The notes beneath the pieces are model-generated. The model was not told the origin of the DNA. It ran no database searches and saw nothing but the letters and a program-made list of their open reading frames with translations. From Catenulispora sp. MAP5-51 (GTDB lineage: Bacteria > Actinomycetota > Actinomycetes > Streptomycetales > Catenulisporaceae), in the NCBI RefSeq assembly GCF_041261205.1, contig NZ_JBGCCH010000001.1:744001-808000 (forward strand): a DNA stretch of 64,000 nt. The letters run 5' to 3'. Position numbers and translations under genes: made by a program. Positions 30,698 to 39,255 of the stretch are shown here, piece after piece; within the stretch, counting starts at the first letter, position 1; the number at the start of each line of letters is the position of its first letter.

Positions 30698-31624
30698 TCA
30701 ACGGATGGTGATCGGGGGGTTTCCGCCTGACGCCGGGGTGTAGTGGGCCGCCTCGTCGCCTTCCAGGATCCGGCTGGCCGCGCCGTCCACGCCGATCGGC
30801 ACGTCGCCGGCGATGGTGACGCGGTTGAGGCGCCGGGGCAGCGAGTCGTAGTCATCCGGCGCGTAGTGCTGCGTGATGCGGTTGTCGAAGACCACGACGT
30901 CGCCCGGATTCCACTGCACCCGCAACACATTCTCCGGCCGCGTGACATAGGCCTGCAGCAGTCGCAGGACGTCCTTCGACTCGGTCGTGCTGAGGCCTTC
31001 GATACCCTGCGCGAACGCCCCGATGAACAGGCCGCGCTCGCCGGTCTCCGGGTGGACGCGGACCACCGGGTGCGCGGTGCGGTACTTCGTGGAGACGAAC
31101 ACCTCGCGGTACTGCTGCCGCCGCTCGTCGTCGTCCTTCGCCTGCGGGCCGGCGTAGTCGTAGTCGTTGGTGTGCACGGCCCACAGCGTGTCGGCCAGGT
31201 CGCGCAGCGGCTTGGGCAGGTCGCGGTAGGCGCCGGCGGTGTTGGCGATCAGGGTGTTGCCGCCGTAGGGCGGGATCACGATACCCCGCAGCGTCGAGGC
31301 CTTCGGCGGCGACTGCACGAACGTGACGTCCGTGTGCCACACGTTCGCCGCTCCGCGCTCGCTGTCCACCGGCAGGATCTGCGGCTGCTCGGCGATGCCG
31401 GGGACGGTCGGGTGCGCGGTGGTGAGGGCGCCGAACTGCGACGCGAAGCGGATCTGGCCCTCGTCGTCGAGGTTCTGATCGCGGAACACGAGTGCCTTGT
31501 GCTCCAGCAGCGCGTCCTTGACCTCCTTCAGGATGCCCTCGGCGAGGTCGCCGGTCAGATCGACGCCGGTGATCTCGGCGCCGATCCTCCCGCCTATGCG
31601 GCGGATGTCGAAGTCGGTAGTCAT
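30698..31624 (-). CDS. TauD/TfdA-type Fe(II)/2-oxoglutarate dioxygenase
   Basis: 308 aa. Iron-binding triad: His and Asp in VWHTDVTF and the distal His in NRITQHYAPDDY, plus an Arg in NRVTIAGD for 2-oxoglutarate. Members release sulfite from taurine, or sulfate from alkyl sulfates. Last gene of the minus-strand sulfur operon, 14 nt after the FMN-dependent monooxygenase. Alkylsulfatase (AtsK-like) or taurine activity cannot be told apart here. Confidence 0.92.
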   Translation of the reverse strand: MTTDFDIRRIGGRIGAEITGVDLTGDLAEGILKEVKDALLEHKALVFRDQNLDDEGQIRFASQFGALTTAHPTVPGIAEQPQILPVDSERGAANVWHTDVTFVQSPPKASTLRGIVIPPYGGNTLIANTAGAYRDLPKPLRDLADTLWAVHTNDYDYAGPQAKDDDERRQQYREVFVSTKYRTAHPVVRVHPETGERGLFIGAFAQGIEGLSTTESKDVLRLLQAYVTRPENVLRVQWNPGDVVVFDNRITQHYAPDDYDSLPRRLNRVTIAGDVPIGVDGAASRILEGDEAAHYTPASGGNPPITIR

Positions 31625-31638
31625 TGCGGATCTTCCTC

Positions 31639-33030
31639 TCAGTGCTGCGATGCGGAGACGAGCAGGGGTTCGGCGGACTCGGAGGATTCAGCGGATTCAG
31701 CGGGTTCGGTGAAGCGGTCGGCGGGCCGCGCCAGTCCGTAGTGCTCGCGCAGCGTGCTCCCGCTGTACTCGCTCCGGAACAGACCGCGGCGCTGGAGTTC
31801 GGGCACGACGTGGTCGACGAAGTCCTCCAGCCCGGTCGGCAGGATCGGCGGCATGATGTTGAAGCCGTCGGCGGCCCCGGCGCGGAACCAGGACTCGAGC
31901 GCGTCGGCGATCTGCTCCGGCGTCCCGGTCACCACGCGGTGCCCGCGGCCGCCGCCGAGCCGGGCGATGATCTGCCGGATGGTCAGCCGCTCCCGGACCA
32001 GTTCGGCGACCAGGGTGAAGCGGCTCTTGTTGCCGTTGACCTCGTCCTCGGTCGGCAGGACGTCCTCCGGCAGCGGCTCGTCCAGGCGGTAGCCGGCCAG
32101 GTCGACGTTGAGCATGTTCGAGAGCTGACCCAGTCCGTAGTCGATGACCTGCAGCTCGGTGAGCTCGTCCTCCAGCGCGCGGGCCTCGGCCTCGGTGGCG
32201 CCGATGATCGGGCAGATTCCCGGCAGGATCAGCGGCAGGCCGTCCCGGCCGAAGGCGGCGGCACGTGCCCTGACGTCCGCGGCGAACCGCTGCGCCTCGG
32301 CCAGGGTCTGCTGCGCGGTGAACACGGCCTCGGCGTAGCGGGCCGCGAACTCCTTGCCGTCCTCGGAGGACCCGGCCTGGACCAACAGCGGCCAGCCCTG
32401 CGGCGAGCGCTGGACATTGAGCGGCCCGCGCACCTTGAAGAAGTCGCCGGAGTGCTCGATCTCGCGCAGCCGCTCGGGATCGGCGTAAACCCCGGCGGCC
32501 TTGTCCAGCACCACCGCGTCGTCGGCCCAGCTGTCCCACAGCCGGGTGGCGACCTCCAGGAACTCCGCGGCGCGCTCGTAGCGGACAGCGTGGTCGATGT
32601 GCTCGTCCAGGTTGAAGTTGTTGGCCTCGATCACGGAGCCGGAGGTGACGATGTTCCAGCCGGCCCGGCCGCCGGAGACGTGGTCGAGCGAGGAGAAGCG
32701 GCGGGCCAGGTGGAAGGGCTCGTTGAAGGTGGTGGAGGCGGTGGCGATCAGGCCGATGTGCCGGGTGGCCACGGCGATCGCGGGCAGCACGGTCAGCGGC
32801 TCCAGCCCGCCGGTGACGTTCGCCCCGGCCCGGCCGCCCCACAGCGCGAGCCCGTCGGCGAAGAAGATCGAGTCGAACTTGCCGCGCTCGGCGGTCTGCG
32901 CGAGCTGCTGGAAGTAGGTGATGTCGTTGACCCGGTGCGGCTGGCTGGCCGGGTGGCGCCAGGCCGCGTCGTGGTGCCCCGGCGCCATGAGGAAGGCGTT
33001 CAGGTGCAGCTGTCTCGCGTCGGTGGTCAT
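31639..33030 (-). CDS. NtaA/SnaA/DszA-type FMN-dependent monooxygenase
   Basis: 463 aa, luciferase-like family. Family sequence is clear: LNAFLMAPGHHDAAWRHPAS, SGGRAGWNIVTSGS and WPLLVQAGSSEDGKEFAARYAEAVFTAQQ. Relatives are two-component monooxygenases that oxidise sulfones or aliphatic sulfonates using FMNH2 from a separate reductase, here the ssuE-like gene in the same operon. Probable role: opening a C-S bond so sulfite can be assimilated. SsuD is an alternative, but length and motifs favour the NtaA branch. Confidence 0.92.
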   Translation of the reverse strand: MTTDARQLHLNAFLMAPGHHDAAWRHPASQPHRVNDITYFQQLAQTAERGKFDSIFFADGLALWGGRAGANVTGGLEPLTVLPAIAVATRHIGLIATASTTFNEPFHLARRFSSLDHVSGGRAGWNIVTSGSVIEANNFNLDEHIDHAVRYERAAEFLEVATRLWDSWADDAVVLDKAAGVYADPERLREIEHSGDFFKVRGPLNVQRSPQGWPLLVQAGSSEDGKEFAARYAEAVFTAQQTLAEAQRFAADVRARAAAFGRDGLPLILPGICPIIGATEAEARALEDELTELQVIDYGLGQLSNMLNVDLAGYRLDEPLPEDVLPTEDEVNGNKSRFTLVAELVRERLTIRQIIARLGGGRGHRVVTGTPEQIADALESWFRAGAADGFNIMPPILPTGLEDFVDHVVPELQRRGLFRSEYSGSTLREHYGLARPADRFTEPAESAESSESAEPLLVSASQH

Positions 33031-33058
33031 GTGTCAGTCCTCGAATTCACAAAGTCGG

Positions 33059-33895
33059 TCAGGCGCCGGTCGCCGGACGCCAGCGCGTGAGCCGGCGCTC
33101 GAGCAGCACCAGCAGGTGGTTGAAGACCAGCCCGAGCACCGCGATGGCGATGATCGCGGCGTACATGTCGGGGATGGCGAAGTTCTGCTGCGAGGCGTTG
33201 ACCAGGTAGCCCAGGCCCGCCTTGGCGCCGACCATCTCGGCGGCGACCAGCACCAGGATCGAGGACGCGCCGGCCAGCCGGATGCCGGTGAACACGGTCG
33301 GCAGCGACGCCGGCAGGATCACCTTGGCGAACAGCCGGTGCGCCGGCAGCGCCATCGAGCGCGCCGATTTGACCAGGACCGGATCGACGTCGCGCACGCC
33401 GCTGATCGTGTTCAGCAAAATGGGCCAGGTGCAGGCGTAGACCACGATGGCGATCTTCGAGGTCTCCCCGATGCCCAGCAGCAGGATGAACACCGGAAGC
33501 AGCGCCAGGGCCGCGGTGTTGCGGAACACCTCCAGCAGCGGTCCGAGGATCTCCGCGACCGGCCGGTACCAGCCGATCAGCAGCCCCAGCGGCACGCCGA
33601 CGCCGATCGCGATGAGGAAGCCGGACAGCGAGCGGACCAGGCTGGCCCGGGTGTTGTCCCACAGCTGGCCGTCCTTCGCCAGCTCTATCAGGGCTCTGAC
33701 GGCCTCGGAGAACGGCACCAGGAACGTGCGGTCCACCAGGCCCACGCGCGGCGCGACCTCCCAGAGCGCCAGGAACGCGGCGATCGCGACGGTGCGCTTG
33801 CCGACCGCCGCCAGCCCCGACCCGACCCGGGTCAGCGGCGCCGGCACCGTCCGCTTCAGCAGCTGGACGGTCGCCGTGATCGGTATCTCAGCCAA
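33059..33895 (-). CDS. ssuC: SsuC/TauC-like ABC transporter permease
   Basis: 278-aa membrane protein with the EAA-like loop VKSARSMALPAHRLFAKVILPASLPTV and about six hydrophobic segments. TTG at 33895 overlaps the ATPase 3' end by 8 nt and has GGGAGG 9 nt upstream. Channel of the sulfonate/sulfate-ester importer. Confidence 0.92.
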   Translation of the reverse strand: MAEIPITATVQLLKRTVPAPLTRVGSGLAAVGKRTVAIAAFLALWEVAPRVGLVDRTFLVPFSEAVRALIELAKDGQLWDNTRASLVRSLSGFLIAIGVGVPLGLLIGWYRPVAEILGPLLEVFRNTAALALLPVFILLLGIGETSKIAIVVYACTWPILLNTISGVRDVDPVLVKSARSMALPAHRLFAKVILPASLPTVFTGIRLAGASSILVLVAAEMVGAKAGLGYLVNASQQNFAIPDMYAAIIAIAVLGLVFNHLLVLLERRLTRWRPATGA

Positions 33896-34712
33896 CGGAA
33901 ACGACCTCCCTGACAGCGGTGACCTCGTCGCGCAGCAGGCTCCAGACCTGATGGCGGTATTCGGCGAACTCCGCGCTCGAGCGCACGTCGTCCTCGGCTC
34001 CCCGCTCGCCCAGGCGGACGTCGACGATCTCCTTGATCCGGCCCGGCCGCGAGGTCATCACCGCGACCCGCTGCCCCAGATAGACCGCCTCGTCGATGCC
34101 GTGCGTGATGAACACGATCGTGGTGCCGGTCTTGTGCCAGATCCGCAGCAGCTCCTCCTGGAGCCCGTCGCGGGTCTGGGCGTCCAGGGCCGCGAACGGC
34201 TCGTCCATCAGCAGCACGGCCGGGTCGGCGACCAGCGCGCGGGCGATCGCGACGCGCTGGCGCATCCCGCCGGACAACTCGTGCGGGTAGCGGTCCTCGA
34301 ACCCTGACAAGCCGACCAGGTCCAGGTACTCCCGGGCGCGCTCGGCCCGGCTCTTGCGGTTCAGCCGGTCCAGGCGCGGCTGCGCCTCCAGAGCGAACTC
34401 GACGTTGCGCAGCGCGGTGCGCCACGGCAGCAGCGCGTACTGCTGGAAGACGATGCCGCGGTCCAGGGCGGGGCCGGCCACCGGCGCGCCGTCCAGCAGG
34501 ATCCGGCCGGTGCTGGGCTTGGTCAGGCCGCTGATGAGGTCCAGCAGCGTCGACTTCCCGCAGCCGCTGGGGCCCACCACGACCAGGAACTCCCCCGGCG
34601 CCACGTGCAGCGTGACGTCGTCCAGCGCGGTGAAGGCCTCGCCGCCGCGCACGTCGAAGATCTTGCTGACGGCCTCGATGCGGATCTTCTCCGCGGTGCC
34701 GGTCGCGGCCAT
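33888..34712 (-). CDS. ssuB: SsuB/TauB-like ABC transporter ATPase
   Basis: 274 aa with Walker A GPSGCGKST, Q-loop FQQYALLPW, signature LSGGMRQRVAIARAL, Walker B VLLMDEPFAALD and His-loop FITHGIDEA. One nt separates it from the binding-protein gene upstream. It may also drive the second permease (36688-37893), which lacks its own ATPase. Confidence 0.95.
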   Translation of the reverse strand: MAATGTAEKIRIEAVSKIFDVRGGEAFTALDDVTLHVAPGEFLVVVGPSGCGKSTLLDLISGLTKPSTGRILLDGAPVAGPALDRGIVFQQYALLPWRTALRNVEFALEAQPRLDRLNRKSRAERAREYLDLVGLSGFEDRYPHELSGGMRQRVAIARALVADPAVLLMDEPFAALDAQTRDGLQEELLRIWHKTGTTIVFITHGIDEAVYLGQRVAVMTSRPGRIKEIVDVRLGERGAEDDVRSSAEFAEYRHQVWSLLRDEVTAVREVVSVG

Positions 34713-34713
34713 G

Positions 34714-35748
34714 TCAGCTCCCTGCCTTGGCGAAGGAGTTGTACTTGTTGGTGTAGACGTCGGCCGCCTTGACCTTGCCCTTGGGGATCTGGCCCTGCTG
34801 TTCCAGCCAGGTGATCCAGGTGGCGAACTCCTTCTCGGCGACGACGCCGCCGGTGCCGGCGATGCCGTAGGACTTGAAGTACTTCAGGGTCGAGGTGTCC
34901 TCGTTCCGGCCGCGCTTCTTGATGATCTCGGTGAAGCGGTCGACGACCTCGGGCAGCGGCGTGGTGCGCGCCCACTCGATCGCCTTGCCCACTCCGGAGG
35001 TGAAGGCGCGGACGGTGTCAGGGTTCTTGGCCAGGAAGTCGTTGCGGAAGACATAGGTCCCGGCGCTGAACGTACCGAGCAGGTCATAGTCCGTGAACAA
35101 CGCCTTGATGTCGCCGTCGGCCAGGGCCTTGTCCCGCAGGACGCCGCCGAGCGTCGCGACGTCGATCTGGTGCGCCCGCAGCGACTGCTCGGTGTTGACC
35201 GGCGGCACCACCAGCGGCTCGACCTTCTTGACGTCGCCCGCGGAGACGCCGTTGCGGCCGAGGTAGATGTCCAGGACCGCTTCGAGGTGCGCGCCGAGGG
35301 TGTTCATCCCGACCTTCTTGCCGAACAGGCCCTGCGCGGAGCTGATCGAGCTGTCGGCCAGGGTGTAGAAGCCGTTGTACGAGTACTGGTCGACGCCGTA
35401 GTAGCTGATGACGGCGGTGATCGGGGCGCCGGCGGAGTGGAGCTTGGCGACCGCGCCGTTGAACGCGCCGCCGAACTCGGTCTGGCCGGTGGCCGCCGAC
35501 TGGATGTCCTGCGGACCGCTGGTCGTGTTGCCGACCCAGTCCAGCGTGACAGGGCCCAGATATCCCAGGTCGGCCGCCAGCTCCGGCGGCGTGACGGAGC
35601 CGACCGAGCCCTGGTAGCGCAACCGGGTGGTCTTCTTGGCCGACCCTCCGGATGAGGAGCCGCATCCGGCGGCCAGCGCGGCGGTCCCGACCAGGCCGAG
35701 GAACCCGCGTCTGGTGGGGCCGGAGGGGACCGGTGCCAGGATGCTCAT
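34714..35748 (-). CDS. ssuA: SsuA/TauA-like substrate-binding lipoprotein
   Basis: 344 aa. The N-terminus has a twin-arginine-like RRGFLGLVGTAALAAGC, combining Tat and lipobox features. The mature part follows the NMT1/SsuA pattern (TRLRYQGSVGSVTPPELAADLGYL; GQTEFGGAFNGAVAKLHSAGAPI). Its ATG overlaps the FMN reductase stop (ATGA). Binds an organosulfur compound by context; ligand unknown. Confidence 0.93.
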   Translation of the reverse strand: MSILAPVPSGPTRRGFLGLVGTAALAAGCGSSSGGSAKKTTRLRYQGSVGSVTPPELAADLGYLGPVTLDWVGNTTSGPQDIQSAATGQTEFGGAFNGAVAKLHSAGAPITAVISYYGVDQYSYNGFYTLADSSISSAQGLFGKKVGMNTLGAHLEAVLDIYLGRNGVSAGDVKKVEPLVVPPVNTEQSLRAHQIDVATLGGVLRDKALADGDIKALFTDYDLLGTFSAGTYVFRNDFLAKNPDTVRAFTSGVGKAIEWARTTPLPEVVDRFTEIIKKRGRNEDTSTLKYFKSYGIAGTGGVVAEKEFATWITWLEQQGQIPKGKVKAADVYTNKYNSFAKAGS

Positions 35749-36308
35749 CGCCCGACCGCCGCCAGCTCGCGGACCCCGTAAAGGCCCAGGGCGTCGGAGA
35801 AGCGCTCCAGGGTGTCGGTCAGCCGGCGGTCGGCCTCCGGAGCAAGGCGTGCGTCCCCTGATTCGCCGCGCACGATGTCGGAGTCCAGCAGGAACCGGCC
35901 CGGCACGACGTGGTCGGCGCCCAGCGCGGTGAGCACGGGACGCAGCGCGTAGTCGATGGCCAGCAGGTGCCCGACCGTGCCGCCGGTGGCCACCGGCAGG
36001 ACGACCTTTCCGGCCAGCGCGTTCTCCGGCAGCAGGTCCAGGAACGCCTTCAGGACGCCGGTGTAGGAGGCCTTGTAGATCGGTGAGGCGATGATGACGC
36101 CGTCGGCCTGGGCCACGGCGGCTATGGCCTCCCGCACGGCCAGCGTGGCGCGCGTGCCGGCGAGCAGGTCGGCCGGCGGCAGGTCGCGGACGGCCAGATG
36201 CTTGGTGGCATGGCCTTGCGAGGCCAGCCAGGCCGCCGCGTGGTCGAGGGCCGCCGCCGTCCGGGAAGTGGGCGACGGACTGCCGGAGACAGCCAGGATC
36301 GAGGGCAT
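35745..36308 (-). CDS. ssuE: NADPH-dependent FMN reductase (SsuE-like)
   Basis: 187 aa flavodoxin-fold reductase with ILAVSGSPSPTSRTAA, DGVIIASPIYKASYTGVLKAFLDLLPENALAGKVVLPVATGG. It supplies FMNH2 to the monooxygenase of the same operon. ATG at 36308 is supported by AGGAG 8 nt upstream. First structural gene after the leader peptide ORF. Confidence 0.92.
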   Translation of the reverse strand: MPSILAVSGSPSPTSRTAAALDHAAAWLASQGHATKHLAVRDLPPADLLAGTRATLAVREAIAAVAQADGVIIASPIYKASYTGVLKAFLDLLPENALAGKVVLPVATGGTVGHLLAIDYALRPVLTALGADHVVPGRFLLDSDIVRGESGDARLAPEADRRLTDTLERFSDALGLYGVRELAAVGR

Positions 36309-36434
36309 GGTGAAGCTCCTAGAAAAGGACGAGAAAAGCGGAACACTAAAGCCGTTAAGCAATGCGCTCACACAAGAGAAGGGCGCGCCAGAACGGCGGC
36401 GCGAAGCCGTACAGAAATAGCCGGCAGGGCAGGG

Positions 36435-36518
36435 CTACGGGACGTCAGGACAGATGGCGCTCGCGGTCCGTCGCAGATCGACGTGACGGCGAGCCACAAG
36501 AAGTCGGCCCTGGTTCAT
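36435..36518 (-). CDS. Cys-containing sulfur leader peptide, operon 1 (27 aa)
   Basis: ORF beginning MNQGR and containing LLVARRHVDLRRTASAIC, ending 4 residues after its only Cys codon. It matches the actinobacterial leader-peptide pattern with an R-R-H-V-D-L core before Cys, known upstream of sulfur genes; in mycobacteria, leaderless poly-Cys relatives act as cysteine-responsive attenuators. TTGACG (36554-36549), an 18-nt spacer and CATTCT (36530-36525) place the transcript start at or next to the ATG, so it may be leaderless. It lies 126 nt upstream of the FMN reductase gene. The function here is inferred from the pattern. Confidence 0.7.
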   Translation of the reverse strand: MNQGRLLVARRHVDLRRTASAICPDVP

Positions 36519-36524
36519 AGCATG

Positions 36525-36554
36525 AGAATGACAGCGGAACTGCGACTTCGTCAA
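36525..36554 (-). promoter_or_regulatory. Candidate promoter of sulfonate operon 1
   Basis: On the minus strand, TTGACG, 18 nt, CATTCT, then six nt to the leader ATG. That -10 to ATG distance is typical of leaderless actinobacterial mRNAs. The second operon has CACTCT at the same distance from its leader ATG. Confidence 0.45.
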
Positions 36555-36628
36555 TGGATGTTCCGGCAGTCTCGCATCCCGGAAGTCCGATGCCTGTTAT
36601 TCGAGAACGCGTGAGACGGCACAAAAAT

Positions 36629-36665
36629 GCGTCGGGCCCCGATGTATTCCATCGGGACCCGACGC
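36629..36665 (-). terminator. Rho-independent terminator of the second sulfonate operon
   Basis: GCGTCGGG and CATCGG stem halves pair with CCGATG and CCCGACGC around TATTC, with one 2-nt internal mismatch. On the minus strand the hairpin is followed by ATTTTTGT, a true U-run. It lies 23 nt after the permease stop. Confidence 0.8.
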
Positions 36666-36687
36666 GAAGGCCGTCGCGAAACTCAGT

Positions 36688-37893
36688 TCATGTAAGACCC
36701 CTGCTTCGCAGCACGCGCCGCTCCAACGGCACGAACAGCAGCTGGTTGACCGCGACGCCGACCGCGAGGATCAGCACGATCGCCGCGAACGCCCCGGCCA
36801 TGTCGTTGGAGTCCTGGGCGTTCTTCAGCAGGAAGCCGAGCGAGTGCCCCAGATCCGCGGACTCCACGATGATCTCTGCCGCCAACAGCGAGCGCCACGA
36901 GAACGCCCAACCCTGCCGCAGCCCGGCCAGGTACCCCGGCAGCGCCGCGGGCAGCAGCACATAGCGCACCGAGGACAACCCGCGCGCGCCGAGGTTGCGC
37001 CCCACCCGCAGGTACAGCGGCGGCACCTGGTCCAACCCCGACACCACCCCGACCGCGATCGAGGGCACGGCCCCGGCCAGCACGACCGCGTACAGCATCG
37101 CGGGCTTCGGCCCGAAGAACATCAGGGCCGGGGGAACCCAGGCCACCGACGGCAGCGACTGCAGCCCGGACAGGATCGGCCCCAGCCCCGCCCGCACCGG
37201 CCGCAGCCGCCCGACCAGCAGGCCCAGCGGCGTACCGATGACAACGGAGGCACAGAAGCCGATCGCACCGTGCTCGACGCTGTGCCCGACCGAGGGCAGC
37301 GCATCGCCGCTGGAGAAGGTGCTCTTCAGCGAGGAGAACGTCTCGGAGGGCCCGGGCAGCTTCCAGTCCGGCCAGATCTTGGCCGCGTAGAGGATCTGCC
37401 AGACGGCGATGATGAGGACGATGGCCAGGATCGGCGGATAGGCGGCGCGCAGGACCGCCACGAGCCTGCCGGTCTCGTGGACGGCGGTGGGCTGTGCGGT
37501 CTCCAGGGCGTCGAGGCCGGCCTCGACTTCTTGGAGGGCGTCGGGGGCTTCGGAATCGGGGGCACCGGGCTCGGGAACCTCAGCAGCTTCCGGCTCGGCG
37601 GCATCAGCCTCGGCCTCAAGCTCGGGCTCGGGATCGGGATCGGGATCGGCAGCCGGCTCATCGCCGGCCGAGAGCTCCGGTCCGCCATCAGCCTCCTGAG
37701 CCGCCTCGACAACCTCAGGCTCGCCCGACTCCCCCACCGCGCCCGGTCCGGCCTCAGCCTCGACCTCGACCCCGACCCCGACCTCGGCCGAGGCCACCGC
37801 CCCGTCCGCCACCGGCCCGTCCAGCTCCACCCCGTCCACCTCCGGCCCGGCGGCCTCGGCCACCGAGCCGGCCTTCGTGGATTCCTCGCTCAC
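36688..37893 (-). CDS. SsuC-like ABC permease with long acidic N-terminal extension
   Basis: 401 aa. The first about 140 residues are Glu/Asp/Ala/Pro-rich low complexity (VEVEAEAG, ADPDPDPEPELEAEADAAEPEAAEV) with no predicted fold. The permease domain then starts near AVLRAAYPPILAIVLIIAVWQILY, with the EAA loop GARGLSSVRYVLLPAALPGYLAGL. GTG start at 37893 overlaps the binding-protein TGA (GTGA). Typical family members are 250-280 aa. No ATPase gene is beside it, so it may share the ATPase of the neighbouring operon. Confidence 0.9.
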   Translation of the reverse strand: MSEESTKAGSVAEAAGPEVDGVELDGPVADGAVASAEVGVGVEVEAEAGPGAVGESGEPEVVEAAQEADGGPELSAGDEPAADPDPDPEPELEAEADAAEPEAAEVPEPGAPDSEAPDALQEVEAGLDALETAQPTAVHETGRLVAVLRAAYPPILAIVLIIAVWQILYAAKIWPDWKLPGPSETFSSLKSTFSSGDALPSVGHSVEHGAIGFCASVVIGTPLGLLVGRLRPVRAGLGPILSGLQSLPSVAWVPPALMFFGPKPAMLYAVVLAGAVPSIAVGVVSGLDQVPPLYLRVGRNLGARGLSSVRYVLLPAALPGYLAGLRQGWAFSWRSLLAAEIIVESADLGHSLGFLLKNAQDSNDMAGAFAAIVLILAVGVAVNQLLFVPLERRVLRSRGLT

Positions 37894-38993
37894 TTCGCGC
37901 CCAGTCCCGCGTCGGAGACCGCCGGCTGGCCGTTCTTCTGCAGTTCGGCGTTCAGGATCGAGAGGTCGAAGATGCCGTGCAGGTCGGTCGCCTTCAGCAG
38001 CTTCACCGCGACCGCGTGGTCCAGCGAGGTCTGCAGGGTGGGGGCGTCGGGGTCGTTGGTGACCTTCTGCTCGCTGAAGGCGCGCTGGATCTCGGCGGCG
38101 GTCAGGGCCTTGCCGGTGAGCGCCTTCAGCTGGTCGTTGACCAGCTTCTGGGCGTCGGTGGGGTCCGAGGTGATCCACTGGTTGGCGGCGATCTGGCCGT
38201 CGATCAGGGCCCTGACGGTGTCCGGGTGCTTGGTCAGGAAGCTGGTGGCCACCACGAGCGTGGTGGTCGAGAACTGGCCGTTGGGCCACAGGCTGCGCTC
38301 GTCCACCAGGACCTTGGCCCCGGCCTCGCTGACCAGGCGCGAGGCCCAGGGCTCGGGCAGCCAGGCGCCGTCGATGTGGCCGGCCTTGAACTGGTCCAGG
38401 GTGGTCGCGTTGTCCTGCGGGTCCACCGAGACGTCGCCGGTGCCGTCGGGGTTGGCGGTCAGGCCCTGCTGCTTGAGCCAGTAGCGCAGCGCCACGTCCT
38501 GGGTGTTGCCCTTCTGCGGGGTCGCCAGGGTCTTGCCCTTGAGGTCCGCCGCCGAGGTGATCGAGGGCTTGACCACGAGTTCGGCGCCGCCCTCGGTGGC
38601 CCCTGCGACGATCTTCAGCGCCTCGCCGTGGGACTGCACGAAGGCCGACAGCGCCGAGGAGGGGCCGACGTACGCGGCGTCCAGCTGGCCGCCGAGCACC
38701 GCGGTCATCTCGGCGGGGCCGGCGTTGTAGATCTGCGTGGTGAGCTTCGTGCCCGCCCCCAGCGCCTTGGCGAAGTCGCCGTGCGCGACCCCGACCACGG
38801 CGGTGGCGTGCGTGACGTTCGCGAAGTAGCCCAGGCGCACCGTGGAGGCGGCCGAACCGCCGGAGACGGCGGCGGCGGTCTTGGCCGTGGAATCAGAGCT
38901 CTTCGACGACCCGCACGCGGCGGCCGAGGCGACGATCCCGAGGACGGCGCCAAAGGCCGCGACCGAACGTACCAGAGTCTTGATGTCTATCAC
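37890..38993 (-). CDS. SsuA-like sulfonate-binding lipoprotein
   Basis: 367 aa. Signal peptide with lipobox ASAAACG, then the NMT1/SsuA-type fold: VRLGYFANVTHATAVVGVAHGDF, NAGPAEMTAVLGGQLDAAYVGPSSALSAF, LVVKPSITSAADLKGKTLATPQKGNTQD. GTG at 38993 gives a normal signal peptide and has GGGAG upstream; GTG 39023 is a weaker alternative. First gene of a two-gene transport operon behind a leader peptide. Confidence 0.92.
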   Translation of the reverse strand: MIDIKTLVRSVAAFGAVLGIVASAAACGSSKSSDSTAKTAAAVSGGSAASTVRLGYFANVTHATAVVGVAHGDFAKALGAGTKLTTQIYNAGPAEMTAVLGGQLDAAYVGPSSALSAFVQSHGEALKIVAGATEGGAELVVKPSITSAADLKGKTLATPQKGNTQDVALRYWLKQQGLTANPDGTGDVSVDPQDNATTLDQFKAGHIDGAWLPEPWASRLVSEAGAKVLVDERSLWPNGQFSTTTLVVATSFLTKHPDTVRALIDGQIAANQWITSDPTDAQKLVNDQLKALTGKALTAAEIQRAFSEQKVTNDPDAPTLQTSLDHAVAVKLLKATDLHGIFDLSILNAELQKNGQPAVSDAGLGAK

Positions 38994-39127
38994 AGGAAGG
39001 CTCCCGAAAGGATCGCCGGGCACACCGGCGGGCGGCTTGTCGCAGCCGCTGGAATCAAGGAAGGGGAAATGACTGGCCGATCACCCGCACCCCAGGTGCG
39101 AACCGGCCCTGAACAGGCACAGGCGGA

Positions 39128-39214
39128 TCAGAACACGGCCGGACAGCTGGCGCTGGACAGCCGTCCGAAGTCGACGTATCGCCGACCGACCAGGGCCACT
39201 CCATCGCGGGACAT
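39128..39214 (-). CDS. Cys-containing sulfur leader peptide, operon 2 (28 aa)
   Basis: ORF beginning MSRDG and containing VALVGRRYVDFGRLSSASC, then PAVF and TGA. It aligns with the operon 1 leader: R-R-[HY]-V-D-[LF]-x-R-x-[AS]-S-A-x-C in both. CACTCT ends 6 nt before its ATG, again suggesting a leaderless transcript. It lies 134 nt upstream of the binding-protein gene. The match between two independently read leaders is strong evidence that both are real. Confidence 0.7.
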   Translation of the reverse strand: MSRDGVALVGRRYVDFGRLSSASCPAVF

Positions 39215-39255
39215 GGCTAGAGAGTGGCACGGTCTCGGATTCCCGTCTATTTCTT

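Follow-up and report, generated by a model that had tools for sequence, protein, structure and literature searches.

Can a leader peptide with one cysteine codon sense cysteine supply and set the expression of the operon behind it? Two short open reading frames (ORFs) on the minus strand of a 64,000-nucleotide stretch of Catenulispora sp. MAP5-51 raise this question (positions 744,001-808,000 of contig NZ_JBGCCH010000001.1, assembly GCF_041261205.1; "the window" below). An earlier note on this DNA had described them as leader peptides with a shared motif at the head of two organosulfur operons, with a single Cys codon as the likely sensor. We found both ORFs as described, with one TGT in each. 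We put the probability at roughly 60% that both are cis-acting, cysteine-responsive leader peptides, in which a ribosome short of Cys-tRNA would stall at UGU and the output would be Rho-dependent. That a leader peptide stands ahead of a sulfur operon is already known; the codon rule, by which the terminal Cys is almost always spelled UGU, is new here.

The terminal UGU codon and the peptide core

We counted leaders above a limit of 14 bits, chosen after the table of 248 rows had been inspected; 39 rows fell under it and 209 above, yielding 203 non-redundant leaders. A hand count places the loci compared, which are part of the listed matches, in about 90 genomes and 24 family-level groups. At position 18, 199 of these 203 leaders have TGT and two have TGC; of the remaining two, one has a stop and the other a different residue. 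UGU thus spells the terminal Cys in 199/201 Cys-bearing rows, as it does in all 81 leaders whose sole Cys is terminal. In both exceptions (L119 and L121) position 18 belongs to a Cys run and is TGC, with TGT at position 16. The non-terminal Cys codons of the same leaders are TGC in 177 cases and TGT in 47 (47/224), and TGT makes up 18.7% of the 1171 Cys codons in background coding-like ORFs of the same DNA. Five extra leaders from named plasmid records (Embleya, Pseudonocardia, Nonomuraea and two from Streptomyces) carry TGT in 5/5. A stop codon follows 0-7 codons past position 18 in 193/203 leaders. Conservation thus extends beyond the residue to the codon, a point that the earlier note did not mention.

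The wobble base of Asp at position 9 varies (GAC 142, GAT 60), so ancestry alone does not explain a fixed wobble base nine codons later. Two other causes were considered and rejected. Cys codons among the last eight codons of coding-like ORFs are 17 TGC and 2 TGT, which speaks against a gene-end bias, and GACA, the downstream complement with which an invariant U might pair, occurs in 0.39 of 193 spacers versus 0.42 of 115 controls. One tRNA-Cys, with anticodon GCA, reads both UGU and UGC. The rule suggests that UGU, the rarer Cys spelling, is tuned for slow decoding, and selection for slow decoding is its simplest reading. In an enteric his-leader assay, NNC codons were decoded faster than NNU codons for most pairs and neighbouring codons influenced decoding, with UGU absent from the available text of that paper (PMC4046918). 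The base after the terminal TGT is C in 154, T in 31, A in 14 and G in none (n=199), as compared with G after TGT in 77/185 in the background. Among the matches listed in a literature search, none dealt with the UGU rule or with the RRxVD core; Canestrari 2020 may contain part of it.

Among rows under 14 bits, five (L085-L088 and L160, 4.4-5.0 bits) have a Cys codon at position 18, all of them TGC, and each has a stop codon inside the core. The stop at position 18 among the 203 leaders belongs to the second copy in locus L108 (minus strand, offset 214), which keeps the core intact and has its one Cys at position 14; the row with a different residue there is L122.

R5, D9 and R12 of the core R-R-x-V-D-x-x-R are each present in 202/203 leaders and are written with several codons. 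Residues fixed while codons vary are more than a pure codon counter needs, and as judged from this pattern the leader peptide residues are under selection. With UGU in the A site, some 8-12 residues would separate R5-D9 from the residue added last, which would put them close to the tunnel constriction. An alternative is a strict arrest peptide, in which the RRxVD chain would sense a sulfur metabolite (cysteine, O-acetylserine or another) and tRNA charging would be secondary. The non-Cys residues held despite varying codons would fit such a sensor, as would the distance from core to terminal codon, which resembles that of TnaC; however, a peptide sensor needs no UGU, yet 199/201 are UGU, and we consider this alternative unlikely.

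Family membership, downstream genes and predicted start sites

Leader #1 matches the NCBIfam model NF042934 (cis_reg_atten, "putative leader peptide") at 36.1 bits (E 3.3e-9, cut-off 27), and leader #2 matches it at 22.2 bits (E 7.8e-5), under the cut-off. Leader #2 resembles leaders of the same genome ahead of cysH and sulfite reductase, and the cysH leader is likewise under the cut-off (20.4). The claim that ordinary gene callers miss such ORFs is therefore right only in part, as NCBI has a model for them, which leader #1 passes and leader #2 does not. Neither leader peptide was matched by Pfam, and Rfam gave nothing above its gathering score within the window. As a short DNA pattern, the RR-H-V-D core by itself, with one mismatch allowed, is no more frequent in the window than chance would give (7 occurrences versus 4.9 expected), so the evidence lies in the whole peptide and its context.

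We searched the organism's own genome with the profile and retained 12 credible copies from 17 rows at E<=10; L013-L017 were left out (9-10 profile positions matched, E 0.25-9.5). Seven of the 12 pass the NF042934 cut-off. Nine stand ahead of sulfur-type genes, namely two luciferase-like monooxygenases, the two window operons, a rhodanese-type sulfurtransferase, a CysH-type reductase, a sulfite/nitrite reductase, a cysteine dioxygenase-like gene (Pfam, E 4e-9) and a ThiS-type gene followed by a pyridoxal phosphate (PLP) enzyme of cysteine-synthase type; a part in sulfur metabolism is our inference for the monooxygenases and for the PLP enzyme. Behind the other three are transporter genes, one for an NMT1-type binding protein and two for permeases.

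In a wider search, NF042934 matched in 14/14 genomes of the family, own genome included (E<=0.01), and in 108/148 sampled genomes of the class (E<=0.001), 93 of which pass the cut-off; as only some candidates per genome were scored, 108/148 is probably a lower bound. A phylum-wide draw, scored in the same way, gave matches in 19/296 genomes. At the thresholds of the family and class searches 0/14 control genomes matched, and at E<=10 matches appeared in 10/14, all below the cut-off. The only phylum-wide match beyond the class (L122, the row without Cys) was judged a chance match and removed, leaving 202 leaders. It is very improbable that the two ORFs are chance frames, or encode trans-acting small proteins that do not regulate the adjoining operon: translation and regulation are predicted here from sequence, which leaves some room for that view, and against it stand the 12 own-genome copies by sulfur and transport genes, the spread across the class and the constraint on one codon.

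A downstream gene was assigned for 196 of the 202 leaders, with six lacking an assignment; names come from Pfam on representatives of 20 of 35 gene clusters. These genes are rhodanese (26), DUF4395 (21), sulfite/nitrite reductase (20), luciferase-like monooxygenase (19), ThiS type (15), FMN (flavin mononucleotide) reductase (13), cysteine dioxygenase (9), SsuA (NMT1_2) type (8), CysH type (8), NMT1 type (6) and TauD (6). The remaining 45/196 include permeases (8 and 6), ROK (5) and SDF (3).

Both window leaders are probably leaderless. Their -10-like boxes end 6 nt before the ATG (Table 1), close to what the earlier note had described, and the signal is class-wide: among 175 leaders with an in-frame ATG (27 GTG-only leaders were omitted), a -10-like hexamer ends 5-8 nt before the ATG in 95, as compared with 4 to 35 when the site is displaced (seven displacements). 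This set also has a TTGAC-like signal at -36 to -32, and a Shine-Dalgarno (SD)-like motif is found in 25/175. The ORF of leader #1 sits within a longer TTG-start frame (36435-36554).

Comparison of leader #1 with eight relatives revealed TTGACG and a similar -10 box in seven, with the leader conserved while the spacer drifts; in the eighth, L181, from another family, the core is kept and TTGACG is absent. For leader #2, four of five relatives keep the promoter, with TAGACG identical, as well as the leader and the sequence that runs up to the SD; in the fifth, L103, the promoter boxes are not in register and the -35-like hexamer differs. Four further genomes of the genus (L045-L048) also carry both leaders, with their order unchanged.

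Behind the leaders lie sulfur-type genes, and a terminator-like hairpin stands between operon 2 and leader #1 (Table 1). By its position the two leaders probably head separate transcripts, in line with the two separate operons that the earlier note had described.

Table 1. Leaders, promoter-like boxes, spacers and genes in the window.
Feature	Position	Strand	Basis
Leader peptide ORF #1, MNQGRLLVARRHVDLRRTASAICPDVP, 27 aa, one Cys	36435-36518	minus	
Leader peptide ORF #2, MSRDGVALVGRRYVDFGRLSSASCPAVF, 28 aa, one Cys	39128-39214	minus	
Proposed sensor Cys codon TGT, leader #1, next base C	36450-36452	minus	family codon rule
Proposed sensor Cys codon TGT, leader #2, next base C	39143-39145	minus	
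-10-like CATTCT, leader #1, ends 6 nt before ATG	36525-36530	minus	
-10-like CACTCT, leader #2, ends 6 nt before ATG	39221-39226	minus	
-35-like TTGACG, leader #1, 18 nt upstream of -10-like box	36549-36554	minus	
-35-like TAGACG, leader #2, 17 nt upstream of -10-like box	39244-39249	minus	
Untranslated spacer #1, leader #1 to ssuE, 126 nt	36309-36434	minus	
7-bp hairpin then CCCTTCTCTT, spacer #1	36384-36403	minus	scan-listed as terminator-like
SsuE-type NADPH-dependent FMN reductase, operon 1 gene 1	35745-36308	minus	TIGR03567, above cut-off
Operon 1 after ssuE, as a whole	30698-35748	minus	
Binding protein, operon 1	34714-35748	minus	sulfonate/taurine-type models, below cut-offs
ATP-binding cassette (ABC) ATPase, operon 1	33888-34712	minus	sulfonate/taurine-type models, below cut-offs
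Permease, operon 1	33059-33895	minus	sulfonate/taurine-type models, below cut-offs
NtaA/DmoA monooxygenase, operon 1	31639-33030	minus	NCBIfam cut-off passed
TauD-like dioxygenase, operon 1	30698-31624	minus	sulfonate/taurine-type models, below cut-offs
Untranslated spacer #2, leader #2 to ssuA, 134 nt	38994-39127	minus	
SsuA-family substrate-binding protein, operon 2 gene 1, GTG start	37890-38993	minus	TIGR01728, above cut-off
ABC permease, operon 2 (putative start)	36688-37893	minus	sulfonate/taurine-type, below equivalog cut-offs
Terminator-like hairpin, 16 pairs then ATTTTTGTGC, between operon 2 and leader #1	36629-36665	minus	

Several further arrangements were observed. When the operon-2 permease is translated from 37893, its membrane domain is preceded by an acidic segment, rich in Glu, Ala and Pro and about 140 residues long. 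On contig C8 of the genome, two leaders (L005 and L007) lie on opposite strands, back to back and separated by about 1 kb, one ahead of a luciferase-like monooxygenase and one ahead of a permease; such pairs recur in L067, L068, L069, L072, L073 and L076. For L175 (scanned for gene identity) and L178 (clustered with it), the first gene that the script places downstream encodes a 2-oxoacid:ferredoxin oxidoreductase, which has no obvious tie to sulfur. A ROK-family gene lies behind L062 (scanned), behind L071, L075, L171 and L199 (clustered with L062) and behind L212, on a Pseudonocardia plasmid. The plasmid leader comes directly after genes for a sulfonate ABC binding protein and a permease, an arrangement shared with the window. 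On a plasmid of Streptomyces sp. NBC_01001 (L213) it stands ahead of a sulfatase gene and is absent from the PLSDB gene table, which is incomplete. Finally, a diverged subfamily, RLWRRVHMDL[VL]RYAGC[VM]C, is found ahead of genes of the cysteine dioxygenase cluster (L127 scanned) with UGU kept; its members are L116, L117, L127, L128, L157, L160, L164, L200 and L206.

Spacer RNA and the proposed mode of control

In the mechanism that we favour, transcription would begin at the ATG or right beside it, and the leader would be translated. With plentiful Cys-tRNA, the translating ribosome would pass the terminal UGU and be released at the stop a few codons on; exposed C-rich, G-poor RNA would then let Rho load, and transcription would end before the operon. 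With scarce Cys-tRNA, the ribosome would stall with the single UGU in its A site and cover the downstream RNA, and the sulfur-scavenging operon would be expressed. Two features would make UGU slow, its G:U wobble and the pyrimidine that stands after it in most leaders, and the nascent R-R-x-V-D-x-x-R, with RRxVD about 8-12 residues from the peptidyl-transferase centre, would probably reinforce the stall. A class-wide switch that combines a hungry codon with an arrest peptide, with one UGU kept by selection in a poor decoding context (U at the wobble position, mostly C as the next base) and RRxVDxxR in the tunnel constriction, is a possible if somewhat doubtful extension. If true, it would give a sharp response from one codon, and no transcription factor dedicated to the task would be needed to coordinate the dozen or so operons of each genome.

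The spacers from leader to gene range from 41 to 428 nt (median about 136; 196 leaders), for which reason coupling of leader stop to gene start was rejected. We compared their composition with control 5' regions; both these regions and the gene starts are the output of a simple script, not annotation. C minus G was 0.153 in 186 leader spacers versus 0.031 in 115 controls (p 2e-24, where p-values overstate independence because leaders share descent). YC steps were 0.248 versus 0.176, and a C>G bubble was present in 123/177 spacers versus 26/115 controls. The family spacers, in which terminator-like sites are few, thus favour Rho-dependent attenuation, although those of the two window leaders do so weakly.

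A number of observations weigh against this proposal. The window spacers are weakly C>G (C minus G 0.099 and 0.042), and their best 60-nt bubbles reach 0.18 and 0.17, where the limit used was 0.2. No promoter between 36250 and 39400 reached the cut-off of a generic sigma-70 scan. In two of the five named plasmid loci G follows UGU; "never G after UGU", 0/199 at first, was thereby weakened as a rule. Theory, in the available part of PMC1183508, wants many regulatory codons for a sensitive response, and sensing by a single codon is therefore testable by a one-base synonymous change.

The downstream SDs are also more occluded than in controls (0.24 versus 0.35 unpaired, p 1e-4), which fits translational attenuation, a reading in which the full transcript is made and leader or spacer RNA hides the SD until a ribosome stalls on the leader. 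CCTCC, the SD complement, occurs in 44% of 193 spacers versus 18% of 115 controls, and translational attenuation of M. smegmatis cysteine genes is cited in the part of PMC13236596 available. However, masking the footprint of a stalled ribosome frees the SD by >0.3 in only 12/158 leaders and hides it in 5, and spacer folding energy is like that of controls (z -0.45 versus -0.41), for which reason a conserved spacer hairpin was also rejected as the switch. We consider translational attenuation somewhat unlikely.

The hairpin in spacer #1, 32-51 nt past the leader stop and followed by the mixed pyrimidine tract CCCTTCTCTT, makes an intrinsic terminator possible there, as in a classical trp-like hairpin switch. 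In the alignment of relatives, L045-L048 allow a comparable stem of 5-6 bp, and across the family a hairpin with a pyrimidine tract occurs in 18/183 leaders versus 7.2 in shuffles (hairpin with >=4 T in eight, 13/183 versus 4.4). These amount to about a tenth of leaders, however, and a hairpin with >=5 T in eight is found in 3/183. Terminator-like sites occur in 12/186 leader spacers versus 5/115 controls. The scanned region of the window has 3 (1.6 expected), none of them listed within spacer #2. This route appears quite unlikely. Rho is placed ahead of translational attenuation, but, given the weak bias of the window spacers, the occluded SDs and the excess of hairpins, not firmly.

If cysteine-responsive control by such leaders is correct, tiny and partly annotated ORFs would govern much of actinomycete sulfur metabolism, antibiotic producers included, and leader control would replace or add to a transcription factor. 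The near-invariant UGU offers a clean test of whether attenuators pick codons for decoding speed.

Comparison with known systems

NF042934 covers a 19-position core common to the window leaders; it is a peptide model, and the codon, the promoter geometry and the spacer lie outside it. E. coli TnaC resembles the model proposed here in being a short leader with a stall near its end, with Rho as the terminator, and it has conserved residues about 8-12 before the stall codon. TnaC is induced by free tryptophan, whereas for the window leaders we propose induction by cysteine shortage.

Seliverstov et al. (2005, PMC1262725) predicted Cys leader peptides in Mycobacterium, P. acnes and B. longum. As far as the available text goes, those leaders lack a terminator and have a poly-pyrimidine spacer, in which they resemble the family described here with its few terminator-like sites, and a Rho/TnaC-like model was suggested for the mycobacterial cys leaders, called a weak prediction. 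They differ in their runs of Cys codons, and the same text mentions neither an RRxVD core nor a codon choice. The uORFC-8-2 ahead of cysS in Rhodobacterales is also a Cys-codon attenuator candidate; according to the part of PMC8632094 available, it differs in having two tandem Cys codons, mostly UGC, and an intrinsic terminator.

The closest comparison is with the Cys-rich small ORFs of mycobacteria (NF042933 Ms5788A, NF042936 Ms4527A; Shell 2015, PMC4633059). These cysteine-responsive attenuators share the RRxVD core, are leaderless and stand before sulfur genes. The window leaders are alike, with leaderless starts predicted from promoter-like boxes. Against the mycobacterial Cys models (cut-offs 45), leader #1 scores 28 and 13.5 and leader #2 scores 22.4 (NF042936). 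Unlike the mycobacterial poly-Cys ORFs, the window leaders carry one Cys codon each and no Cys run near the stop, and the earlier note had concluded that theirs was a different design. We found instead that the number of Cys in the aligned part of the 203 leaders is graded, from 1 (82 leaders) up to 8, with none in L122. A rhodanese leader of the same genome, with three Cys, passes the Ms5788A model (48.0 versus cut-off 45), and leaders of other genomes of the class include MLTKRRAVDLCRVAGCCCCCCSC, which also passes it. Given the shared RRxVDxxR core and this gradation, the single-Cys leaders are a variant of the poly-Cys leaders, not a separate design.

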